This document shows, in pieces, positions 1-10,193 of a stretch of DNA of 12,493 bases. The position numbers and the translations under genes are program-made. The first letter of the stretch is position 1. The number at the start of each line of letters is the position of its first letter. The notes under the pieces are model-generated. The model saw nothing but the letters and a program-made list of their open reading frames with translations. It was not told the DNA's origin and searched no databases. The stretch comes from Acidimicrobiaceae bacterium. Lineage in GTDB: Bacteria; Actinomycetota; Acidimicrobiia; Acidimicrobiales; RAAP-2. Location: positions 2,099-14,591 of the forward strand of contig PLSY01000176.1 of the NCBI GenBank assembly GCA_003164275.1, in the 5' to 3' direction.

Positions 1-1128
1 GACGGCTCGTCGGTCATCACCAAGCACGAGGGCACGGGCGGCGAGGTCTCGGTCGGCACGGTGACGGCCCAGCTGCTCTACGAGATCGCCGGCCACGAGT
101 ACCCGAACACCGATGTGGTGGCCCGCTTCGACACCATCGCCGTCACCGACGAGGGACCCGACCGGGTCCGCATCTCAGGGTGCAAGGGTCTTCCCGCCCC
201 AAGGGACATCAAGGTGTGCCTCAATCTGTTGGGCGGGTGGCGGAACTCCATGACCTTCGTGCTCACCGGCCTCGACATCGAAGCGAAGGCGGCCCTGACC
301 GTGCGGTCGCTCAGCGCCGCCCTCGGTGGCACTGAACAGTTCGACGAGTTCGACGCCAGGCTGATCCGCTCGGACAAGGCCGATGCCGTGGTCAACGTCG
401 AGGCCACCGCCCAACTCCGTGTCACCGTGAAGGACCAAGACGGAGACAAGATCGGACGCCGCTTCTCCAGTGCCGCCACCGAGTTGGCCCTGGCCGGCTA
501 TCCCGGCCTCCATCTCACCTCTCCCCCGACGGCGGCGACCAGCTATGGCGTCTACTGGCCGGCGCTCGTGCCAGCCGGCCTGGTCGTGCCCGAGGTGGTC
601 CACGCCGACGGCCACCGCGTCGACGTCCTCCCTGTGGCCGGGCTCGACTCCGACCGCGGCTCCATCGTCGACTCCACCCCCGATCTGGCCCTCGCCCCCG
701 ATGCGGCCGTAGCCCCTGACTTCGTGGCCGTCCCCGCCGCCGGCCGAGGGGCCCCGGACCGGTCGCGGGCAACCGTCCGCCTGCCCCTAGGGACGATCAT
801 CGGTGCCCGGTCGGGTGACAAGGGAGGCAACGCCAATGTCGGGCTGTGGGCCAGGTCCGAGCAGGCCTGGGCCTGGCTCGACTCCTATCTGAGCCTGGAC
901 GCCTTCTTGTCCCTCCTCCCCGAGGCAGCCGACCTCGAGGTCCGGCGCTTCCACTTCCCCAACCTGTTGGCCCTCAACTTCGTGGTCGTCGGCCTCCTCG
1001 GCGAGGGAGTTGCTTCATCCACCCGCCCGGACCCCCAGGCCAAGGGGCTGGGCGAGTACCTTCGTTCCAGGGTCGTCGACGTGCCCCTCGACCTCGTACC
1101 CGGGCACGCACGCCCATCGCCATCCTGA
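1..1128 (+). CDS. AtuA/DUF1446-family protein, 5'-truncated
   Basis: The reading frame is open from the first base of the window, so the gene starts upstream; 375 residues and the TGA stop at 1126-1128 are visible. Near the visible start come GTGGEVSVGTVTAQLLYEI and then GPDRVRISG, both typical of the DUF1446/AtuA core. The end of the protein has IIGARSGDKGGNANVGLW at about residues 264-281, the signature of the small C-terminal domain found in longer AtuA proteins. AtuA belongs to the acyclic terpene utilisation (citronellol/geraniol) gene set of Pseudomonas, but its reaction is not established, and many actinobacterial homologues sit in other acyl-CoA catabolic clusters. No signal peptide or membrane segment is seen, so a cytoplasmic location is likely. 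The acyl-CoA dehydrogenase gene follows after 70 bp on the same strand and is probably in the same operon. Family assignment is firm; substrate is unknown. Confidence 0.87.
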   Translation, partial: DGSSVITKHEGTGGEVSVGTVTAQLLYEIAGHEYPNTDVVARFDTIAVTDEGPDRVRISGCKGLPAPRDIKVCLNLLGGWRNSMTFVLTGLDIEAKAALTVRSLSAALGGTEQFDEFDARLIRSDKADAVVNVEATAQLRVTVKDQDGDKIGRRFSSAATELALAGYPGLHLTSPPTAATSYGVYWPALVPAGLVVPEVVHADGHRVDVLPVAGLDSDRGSIVDSTPDLALAPDAAVAPDFVAVPAAGRGAPDRSRATVRLPLGTIIGARSGDKGGNANVGLWARSEQAWAWLDSYLSLDAFLSLLPEAADLEVRRFHFPNLLALNFVVVGLLGEGVASSTRPDPQAKGLGEYLRSRVVDVPLDLVPGHARPSPS

Positions 1129-2419: not shown

Positions 2420-4384
2420 CTACCGGCTGGTGTAGCGACGGACGGGAGCAACGCTGGCCGCCGCCGTACCGCCGCCGGATACAGCCACCCCGGGGATGGT
2501 CAGCGCCGCGGTGGTGCTGAAAGTGTCGGTGAACGTGCTGCCCGATGAGGCGGTGAAGGCACCGTAGGACAGGATCTGCCCGGTGATCTGGGGGGCGGAG
2601 TTGACGTCCATCGTTCCTCCGCCGACGTAGATGAACGTGCTCAAGCTGCTGGCGAACGTCGTGGTGTTGCTCAAGCTGACATTCCCGCTGTCCCCGTAGG
2701 GGACGATGAACGACAGATTGTGCTGCGTGGTCGAAGACGACTGGAAGATATTGGCCACCGACGTGGTGAAGCCGTTCACGACCACGGCGATGTCGGTCTT
2801 CAACGAGAAGGTCTCCGTGTTGTTCTGTCCGTCCATGTTGACGTTGCTGCAGGCGCTGGCGTCGAACACCGTCGGAACGGTCTCGGAGTTCACAGCCGTC
2901 AAGAACGGTGTCGGCCCGGAGCTGTAGGTGAAATAGGTGCTGCACTGGGCAGCTGGGATGAGGACGTAGTTGGTGTACCCCTTGGCCGCCCAGGCTGCCT
3001 GGGTCGGGGCGGTGATCTGCGGCCAGGTCGGGGCGGTGGGCATGGAGGGGATCACCGGCGTCTGGTTCGAGGGCATGGTGGTGTTGGTGATCGTCGAGTC
3101 GTTGGCCGAGACCGTTCCCGGTGAGCCATTGATCGTCCCGAGCCATGTCTGATTTGAGCCGGGGACGTTGTAGGTGATGGCGCCGCTGGCATGCGCCGTG
3201 CCTGCGATGTTCGATTGGCTGCCTTGCACCTGGATCTGGCTGCTCGACCCGGTGGCCAGGGCATTCGAGCCGATCGTCGAGTTGTACATGTTGATCCCCG
3301 CACTCGAGGCGTACGAGTCGGCGGCCGCCCCGATGGCCGAGGCGTTCATGCTGATGCCCCCGCTCCCGCTGTAGGCGCTCCCCTTCAGGTTGGCCGAACT
3401 GCTCAACGTGAAGGCACCCGTCCCGTAGGCGCTGCCGTTCACCGTGGCGCTGTTGAGACCGATCGAACCGGTGGCATAGGCACTTCCCGCCGTTGTCATG
3501 CTCTGCATGGACAGCGGTCCGCCGCTGTAGGCGTTCCCAGCCAGTACGAGGCCCGAAAGGGATACTCCGCCAGCTCCGGTCGAAAGGAAGTTCCCGCTCA
3601 CTGTCGCCCCCGACAGTGAGTAGTTCGAGGTGTCGGCGACATCGAAATCCTGGTTGATGTAACAGTTGGTGTTCACGTTGGGGGCCGTGCTGGTCGAATA
3701 GCTGATGAGGCTGCCCTGGATGGTGGTGCTGTTCGTGCAGTTCATGGCGCCACCGCTGACCACGTTGGCCACAGCGTTGGTGCCCTTGTTGATGGTCGAT
3801 GTCACCAGTCCAATCGAGGTCGGCGAGTAGATGGCATCCGAGAAGGCCGTGTTGGTGGCTGTGGCCACCGGGGCTGTGATCTGGACGTCCTCGACCATGA
3901 CCGAGGTTGTCCCGGACATCGATCCGACCGACCTGATCTCCGCCATACCCGGCCAGGCGGTGGGAACGGTCGTGCAGGCAGTCGGGGTCGGGGTGATCGG
4001 CGTCGTGGCCGTGAAGGTGGCGATGTAGCTCACCGTGAGGGCGTAGGTGGCTGTGGGCGGGGTGGTGGGGGCGGTGACGGGCAACCTCGTGGCCACCGAG
4101 TCTGTCGTGAGCGGACTCGGACACGGAAGTGAGCTGAACGAAGTCGCCGCGTCGATCTGGGCGACCGCAACATTGAGTCCCGTCTCCGCCGCCAAGCGCG
4201 CCTGCACCGCATTCGCATAGGTCCCCGTGGCGCTCAGATCCACGACGCTGTACTTCACGGCCACGGCGGAGAGCGAGAGAATGACCACAGCGATGGCCAT
4301 GACGATGATGAGCACGTATCCGCCCTCATCGGATTCCCGGTGCAACCGTCTCATGACCACACCATCTCGACCGCGTCCACTCAT
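2420..4384 (-). CDS. PilX-like (GspK-type) minor pilin with beta-helix-like repeats
   Basis: A protein of about 654 residues. After a charged leader comes G22|YVLIIVMAIAVVILSLSAVAV, a prepilin-like cleavage site and hydrophobic segment (about 23-43). Position +5 of the mature protein is Ile, not Glu; loss of Glu5 is typical of PilX/GspK subunits, which sit at the pilus tip. Residues about 258-405 hold roughly eight repeats of 18-20 residues with the theme G-(S/N)-A-Y-x-x-G, probably a right-handed beta-helix like bactofilin. The C-terminal part, including GQILSYGAF, is not recognised further. Six cysteines are present, an even number that fits an exported protein. Start choice: the ATG at 4384 has AGGGG about 10 nt upstream; a TTG at 4390 overlaps the stop of the preceding gene, and an ATG at 4354 has a weaker upstream site. 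It is the last gene of the minus-strand pilin set. Family call is good; exact role is inferred. Confidence 0.82.
   Translation of the reverse strand: MSGRGRDGVVMRRLHRESDEGGYVLIIVMAIAVVILSLSAVAVKYSVVDLSATGTYANAVQARLAAETGLNVAVAQIDAATSFSSLPCPSPLTTDSVATRLPVTAPTTPPTATYALTVSYIATFTATTPITPTPTACTTVPTAWPGMAEIRSVGSMSGTTSVMVEDVQITAPVATATNTAFSDAIYSPTSIGLVTSTINKGTNAVANVVSGGAMNCTNSTTIQGSLISYSTSTAPNVNTNCYINQDFDVADTSNYSLSGATVSGNFLSTGAGGVSLSGLVLAGNAYSGGPLSMQSMTTAGSAYATGSIGLNSATVNGSAYGTGAFTLSSSANLKGSAYSGSGGISMNASAIGAAADSYASSAGINMYNSTIGSNALATGSSSQIQVQGSQSNIAGTAHASGAITYNVPGSNQTWLGTINGSPGTVSANDSTITNTTMPSNQTPVIPSMPTAPTWPQITAPTQAAWAAKGYTNYVLIPAAQCSTYFTYSSGPTPFLTAVNSETVPTVFDASACSNVNMDGQNNTETFSLKTDIAVVVNGFTTSVANIFQSSSTTQHNLSFIVPYGDSGNVSLSNTTTFASSLSTFIYVGGGTMDVNSAPQITGQILSYGAFTASSGSTFTDTFSTTAALTIPGVAVSGGGTAAASVAPVRRYTSR
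3172..3612 (-). repeat. Coding repeats: about eight 18-20 residue units in the PilX-like protein
   Basis: Successive units read AGNAYSGG, AGSAYATG, NGSAYGTG, KGSAYSGS, then more diverged AADSYASS, GSNALATG and AGTAHASG, each followed by a hydrophobic/serine strand such as SIGLNSA or AFTLSSS. The period of about 18 residues matches one coil of a bactofilin-like beta-helix. The protein repeat is clear by eye; the DNA copies are diverged. Confidence 0.7.
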
Positions 4385-4386
4385 GG

Positions 4387-5061
4387 TCAACAGGCCCCTG
4401 ACGGCGTGATGGGCGAGGAAGGCAAGACGTTGACGGTCGTCTGCAGTGACACCGTCTGGGAGCCGGTCCCAGCCGAAGTATTAGCGGTGCTGGATACGGA
4501 GTTCGAATCACGCATCGAGCCCCGGACAACGAGCTGGACATCGACACTGTTGACCGAACTGGTGAGAGTGAAGACGGGCTGTGAAGCGGTGTTGGCGAGG
4601 CCCCCGACGATGGGCACGCCGGTTGCTGTCACCGTTCCACTGACCGAGGTTGACGGCCATGTCTGTTGCGACAAGGCATTGCCCGAGAGCGACCACTGCA
4701 CCCAGGTGCAGACGTTGTTGACGTTGGTCAGGACCCGAAGCGTCGACCCGGTGCCGGATGCGATGCCGCCGGCCGGACAGACGCCCATGGTCGTCGGAGA
4801 CGACGGGATGCAGACGTTGTTGGCGTTGGTCGAACCGATGTCCGCCGTCAGCTGACGAAGTCCGTTGCGAGCTACTGCCGTGGCGTTCGACGAACTGGCC
4901 CCTGAGTTCACCACGACATTCACTGAGGTGATCACGGGCACGACGAGGACCAGGGCGATGGAGGCCACTCCCATAGCCACCATCAGCTCCACCAGTGTCC
5001 AGCCTGCCTCGGCAACATCTCGTGCTTTCCTGGCACGCACACTCTCGAAGGTCAGGTGCAT
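4387..5061 (-). CDS. PilW-like (GspJ-type) minor pilin
   Basis: A 224-residue type IV pilin-like protein. The leader ends EAG20|WTLVELMVAMGVASIALVLV, a prepilin peptidase site with the conserved Glu at +5 and a hydrophobic N-terminal helix of about 20 residues. The first mature residue is Trp, which is less usual than Phe or Met. The remainder is a Ser/Thr/Asn-rich exported domain with four cysteines, the last of them the C-terminal residue, which suggests a closing disulfide. The reading frame extends upstream to 5370, but that part overlaps the PilV-like gene and lacks pilin features; the ATG at 5061 places the leader correctly. This start overlaps the end of the PilV-like gene by 10 bp, implying translational coupling. 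It should be cleaved and N-methylated by a PilD-type enzyme not encoded here. Confidence 0.85.
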   Translation of the reverse strand: MHLTFESVRARKARDVAEAGWTLVELMVAMGVASIALVLVVPVITSVNVVVNSGASSSNATAVARNGLRQLTADIGSTNANNVCIPSSPTTMGVCPAGGIASGTGSTLRVLTNVNNVCTWVQWSLSGNALSQQTWPSTSVSGTVTATGVPIVGGLANTASQPVFTLTSSVNSVDVQLVVRGSMRDSNSVSSTANTSAGTGSQTVSLQTTVNVLPSSPITPSGAC

Positions 5062-5537
5062 TGGATCTGCACGGTGTTGACCAACTGGGCTGTCTGCGTC
5101 GTCGGGAATTTGGCCGGCCACTGGACAGTGATGGTGATGGGGATCAAATTGTTGGCCACCGTCTGCGGTGACGTGATGATCGTGTAGGTCGTGGTCGTAC
5201 TGCCCGACCCGAGTTGCACGGCCTTGGTCGTGGTCGCCTGGAAGTTGGCGGCATTGACGCAGGCCGGTGCGCTGACCTGCAGGGCGGAGTCCCGTTGCTC
5301 GATCAGGCCGGCGGCAGTGCTCCGTTGCTGGGAGAGCACATTGGCGCCCACCGAGCTCACGATCACCCATCCGACGCCGGCGAATGTCATCAGCAGCACG
5401 GTCATGGCCACGACCACCTCGATCAGGCCGAATCCCTCCTCAGTCGTCGACTTGGCGGATCGACGTCCGCGTGGGTGCTCCTTGATGACGGCGACATGTC
5501 CCGAGGGACGCCGACGGATGCCCCTACGAGGCCTCAC
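5052..5537 (-). CDS. PilV-like (GspI-type) minor pilin, short form
   Basis: A 161-residue prepilin. A long basic leader of 35 residues ends EEG|FGLIEVVVAMTVLLMTFAGVGW, with Phe at +1, Glu at +5 and a hydrophobic helix. Two cysteines follow, one early (SAPAC) and one next to the C terminus (IQCT), as in the disulfide loop of type IVa pilins. The GTG at 5537 is the only plausible start in frame before the cleavage site; no purine-rich ribosome binding site is visible upstream, so the transcript may be leaderless or the start may be an unusual codon further in. It is the first gene of the minus-strand set and lies head-to-head with the much larger PilV-like gene on the plus strand, 517 bp away. 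Both share an NxQQ/SQQ...A..IAE-like stretch after the hydrophobic helix, consistent with paralogy. Confidence 0.83.
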   Translation of the reverse strand: MRPRRGIRRRPSGHVAVIKEHPRGRRSAKSTTEEGFGLIEVVVAMTVLLMTFAGVGWVIVSSVGANVLSQQRSTAAGLIEQRDSALQVSAPACVNAANFQATTTKAVQLGSGSTTTTYTIITSPQTVANNLIPITITVQWPAKFPTTQTAQLVNTVQIQCT

Positions 5538-6054
5538 CGCTACGGTCCGGCGACAAGAGTGGTGACCGCGGGGTGGACAGAGGGGGACTCATGGAAGGTG
5601 ATTGGACCCGCGACAACCTCGCGGCTCCAGTCAGTGAGGCCGAACTTGGCGAGATTGGCTTCTTGAGGGAAGGGAAGCATGGCCTAGACAATGTCGGCAT
5701 TTCGCCCGCTGGACTTGAGGGAACCCGCCTGGCCGGCCCCTGTTGACCACGGATAGAACTCCAGGTCAGATTTCCCATCTTTCGCTATAGGTGGGCGCGA
5801 AATGCGCCGAATACCCAGGTCTGTGATTCGAAAACGGGCGGGGTCAGGCGGACAATACGGGTGCGGCTCGTTACGAGGGCCTGACGCGCCACGAACTCGT
5901 CGCCCTCGCCGTCATGGCGTCCGTGGTCTTGCCGCCGCGCCATCTGTCCTCAACGGAAGTACGGCCCGCGCCGTCGACCTCGAGTCAAACGAGTGCCCCT
6001 CAGCGCCGAGAATTAGGTGCAGATCCTCAGCACATGTGCCGAAACAAGAGAGCG
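5538..6054. promoter_or_regulatory. Divergent intergenic region between the two pilin sets
   Basis: This 517-bp stretch has no convincing gene: the short open frames here look like high-GC shadows, without ribosome binding sites or recognisable protein. It should hold both promoters. No good -35/-10 pair is seen; TTGACC at 5743-5748 is followed at 17 bp only by the poor TCAGAT. Visible structures are hairpins at 5608-5624 (CCGCG/CGCGG) and 5794-5808 (GGCGC-GAAAT-GCGCC), the inverted repeat CTCGT-T-ACGAG at 5867-5877, and a 10-bp direct repeat at 5662 and 5714. No cyclic-di-GMP (GEMM) riboswitch core was recognised. The part from about 5914 could be an N-terminal extension of the plus-strand pilin gene if that gene starts earlier. 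Confidence 0.5.
5662..5723 (+). repeat. 10-bp direct repeat spaced by 52 bp, possible operator pair
   Basis: CTTGAGGGAA occurs at 5662-5671 and again at 5714-5723, start to start 52 bp, close to five helical turns. Both copies lie in the divergent regulatory region. An exact 10-mer repeat in about 500 bp can arise by chance about one time in ten, so this is only a candidate. Confidence 0.35.
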
Positions 6055-9000
6055 ATGAACGGCACTAGGCGGCCCCGGCGCAGCCGGGAGTGGAGGCACG
6101 CGGGACGTCCTACGGACTCCGGCGTGACCTTGATCGAGGTGATCGTGGCCTTCGTCGTCCTCATGATCGCCCTGATCCCGCTTTCCTATCTGTTCACCAC
6201 CTCGATCGTGCAGGCCGGGCAGGCAAAGAACCAACAGACCGCACTGTCAATCGCCGAGCGATGGACCGAGATCCTGGCCAATGTGACACCCCCCGTCGAC
6301 GCCAACCACGCGGTGATCACCGACACCTCGTCATCGCCGGCCGGGCCCGCTCCCTCGTCGTCTGCAGGGACGGTGGCCTCTGCCTCCAACAACAAGGCGC
6401 TGAACGCCATCGCCTCGATCACCGTGACCTCGTCGGCCTCGTTCCAGTCGGCGCAGACGGCCAACCAGACAGTCCAGATCAACACGGGCACGACGACGAG
6501 CCCGGTTCTCGACACCGTGTCGTACTCGGCAGTGAGCCAGTCCGGGAACACCGTCGTGTTCACCTGCACATCCAACCCGTGCAGCACCTCGAGCGACTCC
6601 CTCAGCACGGGCGATGCCGTGACCCAGTCGACCATCGTCACCCCGAGCGAGACGAGGGGCGGCACGGTCTACGGGCTCGCGGCGTCGTACTCGTGGGCCA
6701 CGGCACAGAACTCGGGGTCGGCCTCCAAGCCCAACCTCTGCGCGTCGGGCACTCCTCAGCTGCTCAAGCTGAGGGTGACGGTCACCTGGGGGCCGAACGG
6801 TGACGTGAACAACGTCCAGGACAGCACCATGATCGACTACCCGCCGGCCGGCGTGCAGACCCTCGGCTTCATCGCCGTCCAGGTCAGCGGGGACACGACG
6901 GCCAGCGACACCCAGTCCCCGTCTGAACCATGGAGCACCCGGGTCCAGGCGGTCAACGTCCAGATCACCGGGGCCGAGCCCACCTTCACCATCCACCCCG
7001 ACAGCTACGGCTGTGCCTTCGCCCAGGTGCAGCCGGGTGCCTACACGGTGACGCTCAACCCGGCCATCAACGGCACGCCGGTGGGCACCACCTATGCCAG
7101 CCCCTCGTTCGTGGCCAATGCGGCCGGCACGGCGGGAAGCAATCACATCGTCGCCCTACCGACCCAGGAAGGGAACTCGACGGCCCTGTGCGGCACGACC
7201 AACGGCGGCCCGGTCACTGTTGCCGTCGGGGCGGTCAACCGTCTGGCCATCAGCACCCTGTGCTTCCCCGGCTACGAGCAGGGGGCCGGCGTCAACCTCA
7301 CCTACCCGTCGTCGTCGACCGTCGAGGACGGGGTGGCCTGTCCGGGATCGGGGCAGCTCACCTGCCTCTCCACCGGGGAGAACGGCTCGGGGGCGGTGGC
7401 CACCGCCCTGAGCGGCTCAACCTGGTCCAGTGCCGCCCTCCCGACCACGCCCTCGGTGACCCGAGTGGCCAACGTGGCCTGTGCGACGACCACGGCGTGT
7501 ATCGGTGTCGGCTACGGGTCGAGTGGCGCCGTGCTCCTCCACGCGACGACGGGCGCGAGCCCCACCTTCACCGCCGACACCATTCCGACCTCGGCCAACC
7601 TGGCAACCAGCGGTGCCTCATTGACCCAGGTGGCCTGTCCCAGCGCGTTGGTGTGCGTGGTGGCCGGCACGACCGGCTCGGGGGCCGGCGTGATCCTGAC
7701 CGGCGTCATCGGAGCCACCTCCGACACCTGGACGACCGAGACGGTGCCGTCCAACCTGACCTCCGTCTCCAATCTCACCTGTCCGACCAACGCCACCGGG
7801 TGCGCGGCCACCGTGACCACGTCACCGTCCAACGCCCCAGAGGTCATCTCGGGGCCCCTCGTGGCCGGAACCTGGACGGCCTGGACCACACCGGCCAGCG
7901 GAGCGACCTCGTTCACCGTCACCGCCCTCGCCAAGCTGGCCTGCACTACCGCGGTGCCCACCACCTGCATGGCCGACGGGACGGGCAAGGTGAACGGCGG
8001 GGCCTCCGGGCCGGTCGTCCTGTCGGGCGCCACTAGCGCCTTGGGCCTCGCCGCCACCACCCCCTGGGCGGCCGACACGGTGGCCGCCCCGGCCTTGACC
8101 TCTGTCGGCCAGATCGTCTGCCCGACGACCACAAAGTGCCTGATCGCAGGCACCAGCGCGACGGGCGCGCTGTTCGTCTATGGGGCGGTCACCGGTTCAG
8201 GCCTCAAGTCAGAGGCCCTCACGTCAGCGACCTCGGTGACCCAGGTTGTCTGTGCCACCTCCTCCCTGTGCACGGCCATCGGGGCGAGCAGCACCGCACC
8301 GCTCATCTTCTCCGGCAACATCAACGCCACGGTCACGACGGCCGACACCTGGACGAGTGACACCGTGCCCAGCGGCAGCGGCATCACCACCCTCACCGAG
8401 CTGGTGTGCCCCTCGTCGTCGTCGTGCCTGGCCATGGCCACCGGCCTCAATGCCACCGTTCCGTTCGGCGCCCTCGTCGACACCACCAACAACTCCGCCA
8501 CCGGCGCCACCTGGTCGATCGCTCCGCTGCCTTCGACCGACAACGTCCTGTACTTCGACGACATCGACTGCACGTCAGGGGCCACCGGCACCTGTGCCGC
8601 CGTCGGGGCCACGCCCACCGGCGCGGTGATCCTCAACTCCACCGGCGGCCCCGGTGGATCATGGAGCGACAACACCCCGGGCGGTACCGCCCCGACGGCG
8701 TCTGCCGGGTACGTGACGACCGGTGTGCCCATCCAGGTCAACTCCAGTGGGCTCAAGCCCAGCACCTTCGCCACGGTGGTCACGGCGGGAGCGTCGCCCA
8801 ACATCACCTCAGGCCCGGGCCTCCTCCTCTATCCCTTCTCCAGCGGCTACGCCCTAGGAGCCGGGGACTGCGGGAGCAGTGAGATGGGCGGTGTCAGCGC
8901 CACCACGGTCGCCACCCAACCGGGTGGAAGTGCCACGGCGACCGTGCCCCTCGGCCTCCTCTCGGTCAGCGTGGCCCACACCGCCACCGGCCTGCCGTAC

Positions 9001-9234
9001 TCAGGGGCCACGCTGTCCCTCAAGACATCGCTCAGCGGATGCGCAGTCGACACCTACGGCCTCCAGCCGGCCGGAGCGGACGGCCTGAGTCGGACCGAGG
9101 TGCCCTTTGGCACCTACGGCCTCTACCTGAACGGCAGCGCAGCACCGTTCGCCACGGTGGTGGTGGCCGGGAACACGGCCACCGTCGGGTCCACCGTCTA
9201 CACACTGCCTACCCCGGTGGCGGCGTCGGCATGA
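6055..9234 (+). CDS. Giant PilV-like modular pilin with nine-repeat propeller-like domain
   Basis: About 1059 residues, several times the usual PilV size. The leader ends DSG23|VTLIEVIVAFVVLMIALIPL, a prepilin cleavage site with Glu at +5 and a hydrophobic helix (24-46). Residues to about 265 are the pilin body. About 270-422 contains CAFAQVQPGAYTVTL, possibly a carboxypeptidase-regulatory/CnaB-like sandwich. Residues 423-880 hold nine repeats of about 51 residues, each starting like VxCPxxxxC and followed by hydrophobic strands and a Trp/Thr-rich segment: a probable disulfide-stapled beta-propeller. Residues 967-1053, with VPFGTYGLYL, look like another sandwich domain. Likely location is the pilus tip or cell surface, with a binding role (inference). 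Start: ATG 6055 gives a 23-residue leader; ATG 6034 is an alternative and the frame is open to 5914. Its stop overlaps the next start by 4 bp. Confidence 0.82.
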   Translation: MNGTRRPRRSREWRHAGRPTDSGVTLIEVIVAFVVLMIALIPLSYLFTTSIVQAGQAKNQQTALSIAERWTEILANVTPPVDANHAVITDTSSSPAGPAPSSSAGTVASASNNKALNAIASITVTSSASFQSAQTANQTVQINTGTTTSPVLDTVSYSAVSQSGNTVVFTCTSNPCSTSSDSLSTGDAVTQSTIVTPSETRGGTVYGLAASYSWATAQNSGSASKPNLCASGTPQLLKLRVTVTWGPNGDVNNVQDSTMIDYPPAGVQTLGFIAVQVSGDTTASDTQSPSEPWSTRVQAVNVQITGAEPTFTIHPDSYGCAFAQVQPGAYTVTLNPAINGTPVGTTYASPSFVANAAGTAGSNHIVALPTQEGNSTALCGTTNGGPVTVAVGAVNRLAISTLCFPGYEQGAGVNLTYPSSSTVEDGVACPGSGQLTCLSTGENGSGAVATALSGSTWSSAALPTTPSVTRVANVACATTTACIGVGYGSSGAVLLHATTGASPTFTADTIPTSANLATSGASLTQVACPSALVCVVAGTTGSGAGVILTGVIGATSDTWTTETVPSNLTSVSNLTCPTNATGCAATVTTSPSNAPEVISGPLVAGTWTAWTTPASGATSFTVTALAKLACTTAVPTTCMADGTGKVNGGASGPVVLSGATSALGLAATTPWAADTVAAPALTSVGQIVCPTTTKCLIAGTSATGALFVYGAVTGSGLKSEALTSATSVTQVVCATSSLCTAIGASSTAPLIFSGNINATVTTADTWTSDTVPSGSGITTLTELVCPSSSSCLAMATGLNATVPFGALVDTTNNSATGATWSIAPLPSTDNVLYFDDIDCTSGATGTCAAVGATPTGAVILNSTGGPGGSWSDNTPGGTAPTASAGYVTTGVPIQVNSSGLKPSTFATVVTAGASPNITSGPGLLLYPFSSGYALGAGDCGSSEMGGVSATTVATQPGGSATATVPLGLLSVSVAHTATGLPYSGATLSLKTSLSGCAVDTYGLQPAGADGLSRTEVPFGTYGLYLNGSAAPFATVVVAGNTATVGSTVYTLPTPVAASA
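7321..8690 (+). repeat. Nine Cys-pair repeats of about 51 residues in the giant pilin
   Basis: First cysteines fall at residues 429, 476, 528, 576, 630, 689, 733, 785 and 839 (start at 6055), so the spacing is 44-59 residues. Their partners follow 6 to 8 residues later in every repeat (437, 482, 534, 583, 638, 695, 739, 791, 847). Typical core: VACPSALVCVVAG. Glycine-rich turns and a W-T segment recur between pairs. The regularity shows an ancient internal duplication under selection for the disulfide. Confidence 0.85.
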
Positions 9235-10193
9235 GGGCGAAGACATTGCATCGCCGGCTGATGGATACCTGGAGGTCCCGGGCGGAACGAGACGAGGGCT
9301 TCACCCTGGTCGAGCTGCTGGTGGCCTTCATCTGCCTCATCATCCTCATCACCATCGCCGGCACCGCACTCACCACCTACATGAATGCCGGGAACTCAGT
9401 GATCTCCACCTACACGGCTTCCGACCAGCTCCTGCCGTCCTCGCTCACCATCCAGCGCCTCATCCGCAGCGAGGTCGAGCCGGCACCAACGGCTGCCTCC
9501 TCCACCTACACCACGACCTGCTCTTCGGCCATCAACGTGCCGTGTCCCGCCTTCCTCACCGGGTCGGTGGGCACCTTCTCCAACGCCTTCTACGCCAACG
9601 TCGGCGACTCCAACGGCCCGGCCAAGATCGTGATGGCCGAGGGAACACCAACCCGGTGCTCCAACTGCAAGTTCTATTCGTCGCTCTTCACCGTCACCGA
9701 GTACCCGGCATGTGGTGCGGTGGCAAAGACCGGGTGCACGACCGCACCGTGCCCATTCGCCATGAACTCGTCGCTCCTCTGCTCGTGGTCGGGGAACGGG
9801 ACCGTGCTGGTCGACGTGCCGAATGTGGTGAACGGCGCATCACCGGTGTCGTCCCCGGTCTTGGTGAACGGAACCCTCACCAGCACGCCGCTCGCCGATG
9901 CCAGCAAGCCGATCTTCACGTACAACACCCTCGATCCTTACTCCTTCGACTACGTGCCGGGAGACGGCGGGACCCCGAGCGCCACGACCGGGATCCTGCC
10001 GGGCTTCAACACCTGTGCGGCCCCGACCATGGTGAGCGGCTCGCCGACCGACTCCAACTGCTCCCCCGACGACATCCAGAGCATCGACTTCGACCTGGAG
10101 GTCCAGGTCCAGGGCAGCCCGATCCAGGAGAACGCCTTCACCATCTACCGGCTCTCGTCGTCGTCCTATTCCTACAGTCCGGTGGTGGGATAG
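9231..10193 (+). CDS. PilW-like (GspJ-type) minor pilin, cysteine-rich
   Basis: A 320-residue prepilin. The leader ends RDEG23|FTLVELLVAFICLIILITIAG, a textbook prepilin peptidase site with Phe at +1 and Glu at +5 and a hydrophobic helix (24-45). The exported part is about 275 residues, larger than a usual PilW, with ten cysteines including CSNCKF and CGAVAKTGCTTAPC, an even number that suggests several disulfides. The ATG at 9231 overlaps the stop of the giant PilV-like gene (ATGA), so the two are translationally coupled; the frame is open back to 9039 but that part lies inside the preceding gene. The next gene begins immediately after the TAG at 10191-10193. It is expected to work with its two neighbours as a minor-pilin complex that primes or caps a type IV pilus. 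Confidence 0.86.
   Translation: MRAKTLHRRLMDTWRSRAERDEGFTLVELLVAFICLIILITIAGTALTTYMNAGNSVISTYTASDQLLPSSLTIQRLIRSEVEPAPTAASSTYTTTCSSAINVPCPAFLTGSVGTFSNAFYANVGDSNGPAKIVMAEGTPTRCSNCKFYSSLFTVTEYPACGAVAKTGCTTAPCPFAMNSSLLCSWSGNGTVLVDVPNVVNGASPVSSPVLVNGTLTSTPLADASKPIFTYNTLDPYSFDYVPGDGGTPSATTGILPGFNTCAAPTMVSGSPTDSNCSPDDIQSIDFDLEVQVQGSPIQENAFTIYRLSSSSYSYSPVVG

Follow-up and report, generated by a model that had tools for sequence, protein, structure and literature searches.

Type IV pilus tip complexes are best known from diderm bacteria, in which PilY1, a propeller protein distinct from the minor pilins, is mounted on them. In the type IVa pilus of diderms, PilC/PilY1 has been described as belonging to the tip (PMC10191384), its propeller being carried as a separate tip protein (PMC8179133), and PilY1 has been presented as priming complex, tip and cork, with a type I signal peptide (PMC7541494) and a seven-bladed propeller that defines the family PF05567 (PMC13190605). 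A second related system is that of the modular pilins, for which one survey gives over 1,200 proteins and 264 architectures, names vWA and lectin modules, places PF13620 among the frequent ones, and cites Streptococcus sanguinis as an example, with PilB carrying vWA and PilC a lectin (PMC8179133). Nine-bladed propellers are also known (PMC4125824), the range described for natural propellers being 4 to 12 blades (PMC8458387). In this work, a gene from an Acidimicrobiaceae bacterium has been analysed, located in a stretch of 12,493 nucleotides of contig PLSY01000176.1 (the window), which encodes in a single chain a minor pilin with a predicted nine-bladed propeller inserted in its stalk, referred to below as the propeller pilin.

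Like the modular pilins, the propeller pilin joins a pilin to a module that is not specific to pilus biology, and the functional module is, as in those proteins, placed on a minor pilin of a probable monoderm type IVa pilus; it differs from them in that the module is a nine-bladed propeller by prediction, and in that it lies within a loop of a grafted stalk and not after the pilin module. Modular pilins are already known and the propeller module within a minor pilin appears to be what is new here: among the papers listed, none dealt with a propeller-bearing pilin by title and start of abstract, and one of the 264 architectures of Dataset S1 (PMC8179133) may contain such a module. With PilY1/PilC, the protein shares a beta-propeller alongside PilV/W/X-type minor pilins, but here it forms part of the pilin chain, with nine predicted blades instead of seven; the protein has a prepilin leader rather than a type I signal peptide, and gives no match to PF05567 (not listed at E up to 1). 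A first-pass annotation, made from the sequence alone, had linked this domain to the PilY1-type propeller; the link did not hold, the relatives of the repeats being free Cys-pair and BNR-type repeat proteins, and, on these comparisons, the propeller of the pilin is not that of PilY1. The PilY1 structure 3HX6 was not among the 50 VIA-align rows listed, which carries no weight either way. As regards eIF2A/eIF3b, described with nine four-stranded blades and aligned with the model over the whole ring (PMC4125824; 3wj9), these are eukaryotic translation factors and the likeness is in fold only.

The predicted propeller and its insertion in the pilin

The propeller comprises nine repeats, and a C-x(5-7)-C pair occurs in every one of them (429/437, 476/482, 528/534, 576/583, 630/638, 689/695, 733/739, 785/791 and 839/847), the spacing between first cysteines being 44-59 residues with a mean of 51. 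In 20,000 shuffles of the protein, such pairs numbered 1.5 on average and 7 at most. The repeats had been read in this way in the first-pass annotation, whose gene coordinates and propeller range (420-890) were also right, and its further suggestion of a propeller-like domain is borne out at the level of a model, since AlphaFold2 predicts nine beta-propeller blades confidently (nine strand groups, pTM 0.88), with the repeated four-stranded antiparallel blades by which a beta-propeller is recognized. The nine blades may form a closed ring, and the first hairpin of each would be closed by a disulfide, nine in all. The PDB structures listed as matches are, by name, almost all propeller proteins, including the nine-bladed eIF2A, and the predicted propeller aligned over 361 residues to the nine-bladed 3wj9 and over 381 to bacterial DPP4. 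The length of the eIF2A alignment was considered as proof of nine blades and dropped, given that bacterial DPP4 aligned over more residues. Sequence profiles compared with the PDB gave nothing, either with the 80-sequence family alignment A2 (E up to 1) or with A3 (E up to 10). The zinc-finger model PF25454 was found in 14 of 25 members scanned (best E 7.9e-07), is listed by the database for P0016, P0042 and P0045, and stayed below its cut-off in the window protein (16.7 of 26 bits); it was taken for a resemblance in Cys spacing.

The position of the propeller within the chain was established with HHalign, by comparing five propeller-less pilins (L010, L014, L015, L017 and L019) with eleven propeller pilins. 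Columns 4-244 of the bare pilins correspond to window residues 15-419 and columns 249-415 to residues 886-1042, with the probabilities given in Table 1. Since the bare pilins align on both sides of a single loop, the alignments place the propeller there, as an insertion of about 466 residues in one loop of a stalk domain, so that both ends of the ring would be held by one domain. The junctions between pilin and propeller are conserved in the family alignment. Given the HHalign result, a simple end-to-end C-terminal fusion was discarded, and the earlier claim of a propeller grafted directly onto PilV stands as regards the single chain but not as regards the site, which is a loop of a PF13620-like grafted stalk; PF13620 itself was seen in the relatives and not in the window protein.

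The N-terminal part has the layout of a minor pilin in the predicted model, with a long helix followed by strands. The leader end and mature N terminus read PTDSG^VTLIEV, with the cut expected after G23 and Glu at mature position 5, and PF07963, at a cut-off of 21.2 bits, is the sole Pfam family above threshold in the protein. The NCBIfam PilV model (TIGR02523) covers residues 22-121 with 29.9 bits and does not reach its curated cut-off of 52.2, while the GspI/XpsI models likewise match the N terminus below cut-off; given the score of the PilV model, the protein is, by sequence profile, PilV/GspI-like and not a certified PilV equivalog. Of the PilV-type prepilin N terminus claimed earlier, the prepilin part was thus retained, and the PilV assignment as a likeness. 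In the pilin head, a small beta insert, placed at about residues 96-214 or about 106-223 (6370-6723 for the latter), is present as a single copy in the window protein, seemingly doubled in some relatives and absent in others, such as P0076 and P0078 (variation is also recorded for L002, P0015 and P0051); judging from these comparisons, it is another movable unit of the gene.

The open frame spans 5914-9234 (+), with in-frame ATG codons at 5914 and 6034 besides the chosen start at 6055. The G+C content at third codon positions (GC3) stays between 0.85 and 0.93 in all ten 300-base steps, which together cover 3000 of the 3177 bases, and this evenness along the gene gives no hint of a frameshift or of an assembly join, either of which had been named beforehand as fatal to the idea. 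No match was obtained in the PHROGs comparison, and nothing was found in a promoter/terminator scan of 5400-6200 or an Rfam scan of the window.

Homologues, the fourth blade and the separate parents

A homologue search for the pilin-propeller fusion, as proposed in the first-pass annotation, was productive. The protein database search, in which scoring was limited to the 7991 candidates with most shared words, returned 94 matches, of which 91 were counted as propeller pilins, P0001 being the window's own protein, on contigs of up to 4.26 Mb; the remaining three, P0092-P0094, lack the prepilin motif and are free repeat proteins, each containing 14 pairs. The full prepilin motif is present in 53 of the 91, another 24 start at a later codon within the helix (loose pattern), and the other 14 show neither. 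Hits carrying an organism name belong to Acidimicrobiales (P0021, P0029, P0066 and P0070) or have a name truncated after 'Acidimicrobia' (P0076), and three loci from the species collection are from Acidimicrobiales or Acidimicrobiaceae.

Alignment A2 contained 80 sequences, namely the window protein itself and 79 taken from the set of 91; P0001 was left out as the same protein, and P0012, P0030, P0063, P0064, P0069, P0070, P0071, P0073, P0074, P0075 and P0077 as fragments, odd ends or long variants. Seven of the Cys pairs are complete in all 80 sequences; for 476/482 the number is 79 and for 576/583 it is 70, which leaves all nine pairs in 69 sequences and eight in 11. In the ten sequences without pair 576/583, the gap runs from window residue 566/567 to 618/620 and corresponds to repeat 4; these sequences form one clade with support 1.0 in a tree calculated without those columns. 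A whole blade has thus been gained or lost as a unit, and only once on this tree.

Moreover, the class and the order of genome G001, a relative carrying the gene, were searched with a family profile. It matched in at least 29 of 148 genomes from the class and in at least 58 of 198 from the order, these counts being lower bounds given that at most 4-5 candidates per genome were scored. Among the matches listed, the full-length propeller pilin occurred only in G001, and the partial matches examined were of two main sorts. The first comprises pilins without Cys-pair repeats, among them the five used above, which have 392-472 residues counted from ten residues before the motif. PF07963 is over cut-off in all five, and PF13620, the frequent modular-pilin module, was seen at E up to 0.01 in four, exceeding its cut-off in L014 and L017. 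They share with the propeller pilin both pilin and stalk, on either side of the insertion, and differ in that the propeller is missing and the insertion loop has only a few residues.

The second sort comprises free Cys-pair repeat proteins, found at 27 loci (L005-L009, L011-L013, L016, L020 and L024-L040) and reached by the profile with E down to 4e-43. They share with the propeller pilin the same repeat, with one C-x-C pair each, but no prepilin motif was found in them and none has nine pairs: seven loci had 7 pairs, two had 8, seven had 14 and four had 16, the remaining seven having other numbers between 11 and 17, and several of the frames end at a locus boundary. Asp-boxes (S/T-x-D-x-G-x-T/S-W) occur in some of the free proteins, with three in L007, four in L009 and three each in P0092 and P0093, and were found neither in the window protein nor in eight other free loci tested; some free relatives also have BNR/Sortilin/YCF48 matches, mostly weak. 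On this evidence, both parents of the insertion, the pilin and the repeat module, still exist separately in the same class.

Some genomes of the order are rich in free Cys-pair repeat proteins, one genome having at least ten among the matches listed; an open frame of 3208 residues occurs among them, and several of these proteins (L024-L040 and other order-level matches) have no sensible Pfam family. Other pilins with large frames and without the nine-blade repeats were also encountered (L041-L043). L041 and L042 are two pilin genes about 80 kb apart on contig C17 of genome G180, identical over the first 454 residues of the open frame (1488 bp at 99.4 percent) and then partly alike, whose ends differ, a frame of 1583 residues finishing in repeated domains and one of 780 in a part that by eye resembles a lectin; from their sequences, they look like the product of gene conversion or of tip-module exchange on a fixed pilin base. 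L043, from genome G303, is a pilin with a 1549-residue open frame and two Cys pairs only, and apparently carries a different large graft.

Gene neighbourhood and pilus machinery

Genes in the PilW/GspJ and PilX/GspK positions follow the propeller pilin in all three genomic loci, with 46-57 percent identity, and an acyl-CoA dehydrogenase gene precedes it in both loci reaching upstream (L001 and L002; L003 starts within the pilin gene). The PilX/GspK-position protein of this triad had no family over cut-off in Pfam or NCBIfam. In the window, a second, divergent triad (2420-5537) lies head to head with the propeller triad, between the acyl-CoA dehydrogenase gene and the propeller pilin, and is absent from L001 and L002. 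Its first pilin matched the propeller pilin with a BLASTP E of 5e-05 in a single comparison, and its PilX-like protein was not found in G001-G003 in a search run without a positive control. From their gene order, the two triads could represent two alternative pilus tips.

The pilus machinery was located in G001, where locus L054 contains, within 20 kb, two PilA-like pilins, PilC, PilB, PilM and PilO, together with a second T2SSE protein with an MshEN domain and a short T2SSE protein read as PilT-like. No secretin match was obtained in the three genomes G001-G003, the control search being positive in 6 of 14. By its gene content, this set looks like a monoderm type IVa machine. A prepilin motif search in G001 gave four places, three with a PilA-like motif and the propeller pilin; as it missed the PilW-like pilin beside the propeller pilin, this search is not sensitive.

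Table 1. Features of the propeller pilin and of the neighbouring pilin genes in the window
Feature	Residues	Positions	Strand	Basis or remark
Second PilX/GspK-position protein	656 aa	2420..4390	-	GspK model E 0.035, far below cut-off
Second PilW-like pilin		4387..5061	-	PF07963 16.4 bits, below cut-off
PilV-like pilin without graft, first gene of second triad	161 aa	5052..5537	-	PF07963 17.6 bits, short of the 21.2-bit cut-off
Minor pilin with inserted nine-bladed propeller (predicted)	1059 aa	6055..9234	+	
Class III (prepilin) leader	1-23	6055..6123	+	PF07963 21.6 bits, sequence
Pilin N-terminal helix	24-75	6124..6279	+	AlphaFold2 model (helix 26-75)
Pilin head	76-265	6280..6849	+	Alignment and model; end placed by eye from pilin 5052-5537, presumptive
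Stalk: PF13620-like domain (266-410) and first strand of next domain (411-419)	266-419	6850..7311	+	HHalign to propeller-less pilins, probability 99.6
Inserted propeller, nine blades (predicted)	420-884	7312..8706	+	Repeats, AlphaFold2 model, HHalign, shuffles
Blades 1-9	420-466, 467-518, 519-566, 567-620, 621-679, 680-723, 724-775, 776-829, 830-884			
Blade 4	567-620	7753..7914	+	Missing as a unit in 10/80 aligned sequences
Second half of interrupted domain and last beta domain	885-1059	8707..9231	+	HHalign probability 98.7
PilW/GspJ-position minor pilin		9231..10193	+	PF07963 21.7 bits (cut-off 21.2); ATG overlaps propeller-pilin stop (ATGA)
PilX/GspK-position protein	676 aa	10194..12224	+	Position; hydrophobic N-terminal helix without Glu5 (by eye)

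Proposed function and alternatives

Taken together, we consider it probable that the propeller pilin belongs, as an I-type (PilV/GspI-like) minor pilin, to a type IVa pilus that is monoderm and retractile, in which the inserted propeller would act as a gripping head at the tip. According to this proposal, a long beta stalk would carry the nine-bladed, disulfide-stapled propeller in one loop, and the pilin, together with its J- and K-like operon partners, would cap the tip, a position suggested by analogy. With the ends of the ring pinned in one stalk domain and the hairpins closed by disulfides, the head would withstand the pull of the pilus without unfolding, and the propeller, facing outwards as a binding head or adhesin, would attach to a surface, a polymer or another cell, so that retraction would pull on a fixed point. 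The composition of the propeller, very poor in charge and with 31 percent Ser/Thr, points to no particular ligand and makes glycosylation possible.

Several points weigh against the gripping-head proposal. The propeller contains 4.1 percent D+E, 1.1 percent K+R and one Arg in 466 residues, a charge which, on composition, is very low and unlike that of a typical adhesin surface. Ring closure was judged from model scores and structure alignments and not from coordinates, and propellers that we take to have fewer blades score as high as or higher than eIF2A. The protein was assigned to the tip because of its bulk and by analogy with GspI-J-K, and its role in adhesion is putative. Furthermore, the pilus machine is known only from the relative G001, whose completeness is unstated, and the type IV pili investigated to date in Actinobacteria are described as being of the Tad/Tfpc type (PMC6916266).

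A wider reading, which we put forward only tentatively, is that monoderm actinobacteria evolved a tip propeller independently of PilY1, by insertion of a free disulfide propeller in a minor-pilin stalk, to give a force-proof gripping head. One chain would then correspond to what in diderms is PilY1 plus minor pilins, with nine blades, or eight in one clade, and with a blade number that would itself be an evolving trait; we regard this extension as less likely than not.

The best surviving alternative, which we regard as rather unlikely, is that the protein stands in for PilY1, its propeller priming assembly, corking retraction or sensing force, with adhesion being secondary. In fact, PilY1 also places a propeller at the tip with PilV/W/X, in the roles of priming complex, tip and cork (PMC7541494), and the propeller pilin belongs to an I-J-K gene set. 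PF05567 was found in none of the three genomes G001-G003 and in none of the 148 class genomes, but the same search was silent in all 14 controls, so that absence is not shown, and related genomes have such pilins without a propeller. Moreover, without a secretin channel a cork would seem less needed, and, as PilC/PilY1 is a tip component of diderms, in a monoderm there is perhaps nothing to replace. Replacement of PilY1 by the propeller pilin is thus unproven.

It is still less probable that the protein serves as a pseudopilin in a machine that secretes or is associated with the wall, where the propeller would recruit cargo inside the wall and not grip outside it. The sub-threshold GspI/XpsI matches agree with it, and I-J-K sets are described as common to the type II secretion system and type IV pili (PMC10191384), but PilM, PilO and a PilT-like ATPase are present in G001 and no secretin match was obtained, a combination which suits a type IVa pilus and not a type II secretion system.

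An enzyme on the pilus, a sialidase- or glycosidase-like BNR propeller digesting polymers, appears very improbable. Asp-boxes and BNR-type matches in some free relatives speak for it, as do the GH74-type enzymes and a putative neuraminidase listed by Foldseek, but the window protein has no Asp-box and no enzyme family over cut-off in Pfam or NCBIfam. Sialidases have three arginines, which the single Arg of the propeller cannot provide, and the sialidase idea was dropped on these two grounds, the missing Asp-boxes and the single Arg. Finally, an artefact, whether a frameshift, a mis-join or a chimera in which a pilin gene was joined to a repeat gene, can practically be dismissed, given that no direct support for it was found beyond the separate existence of free repeat proteins and bare pilins, and that the open frame, the even GC3 and the recurrence of 91 proteins of this kind, with conserved junctions, on contigs of up to 4.26 Mb speak against it.

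If the independent origin holds, the presence in a pilin of a propeller unrelated to that of PilY1 would represent a convergent monoderm answer to the diderm tip complex. The role of a tip propeller would then be testable on one gene, with relatives of zero, eight and nine blades as natural comparisons and, since both parents are still present in the same class, with an insertion that can be dissected. Also, a predicted nine-bladed propeller of bacterial origin, pinned at both ends and with a Cys pair per blade, would serve as a model for a ring under pulling force.

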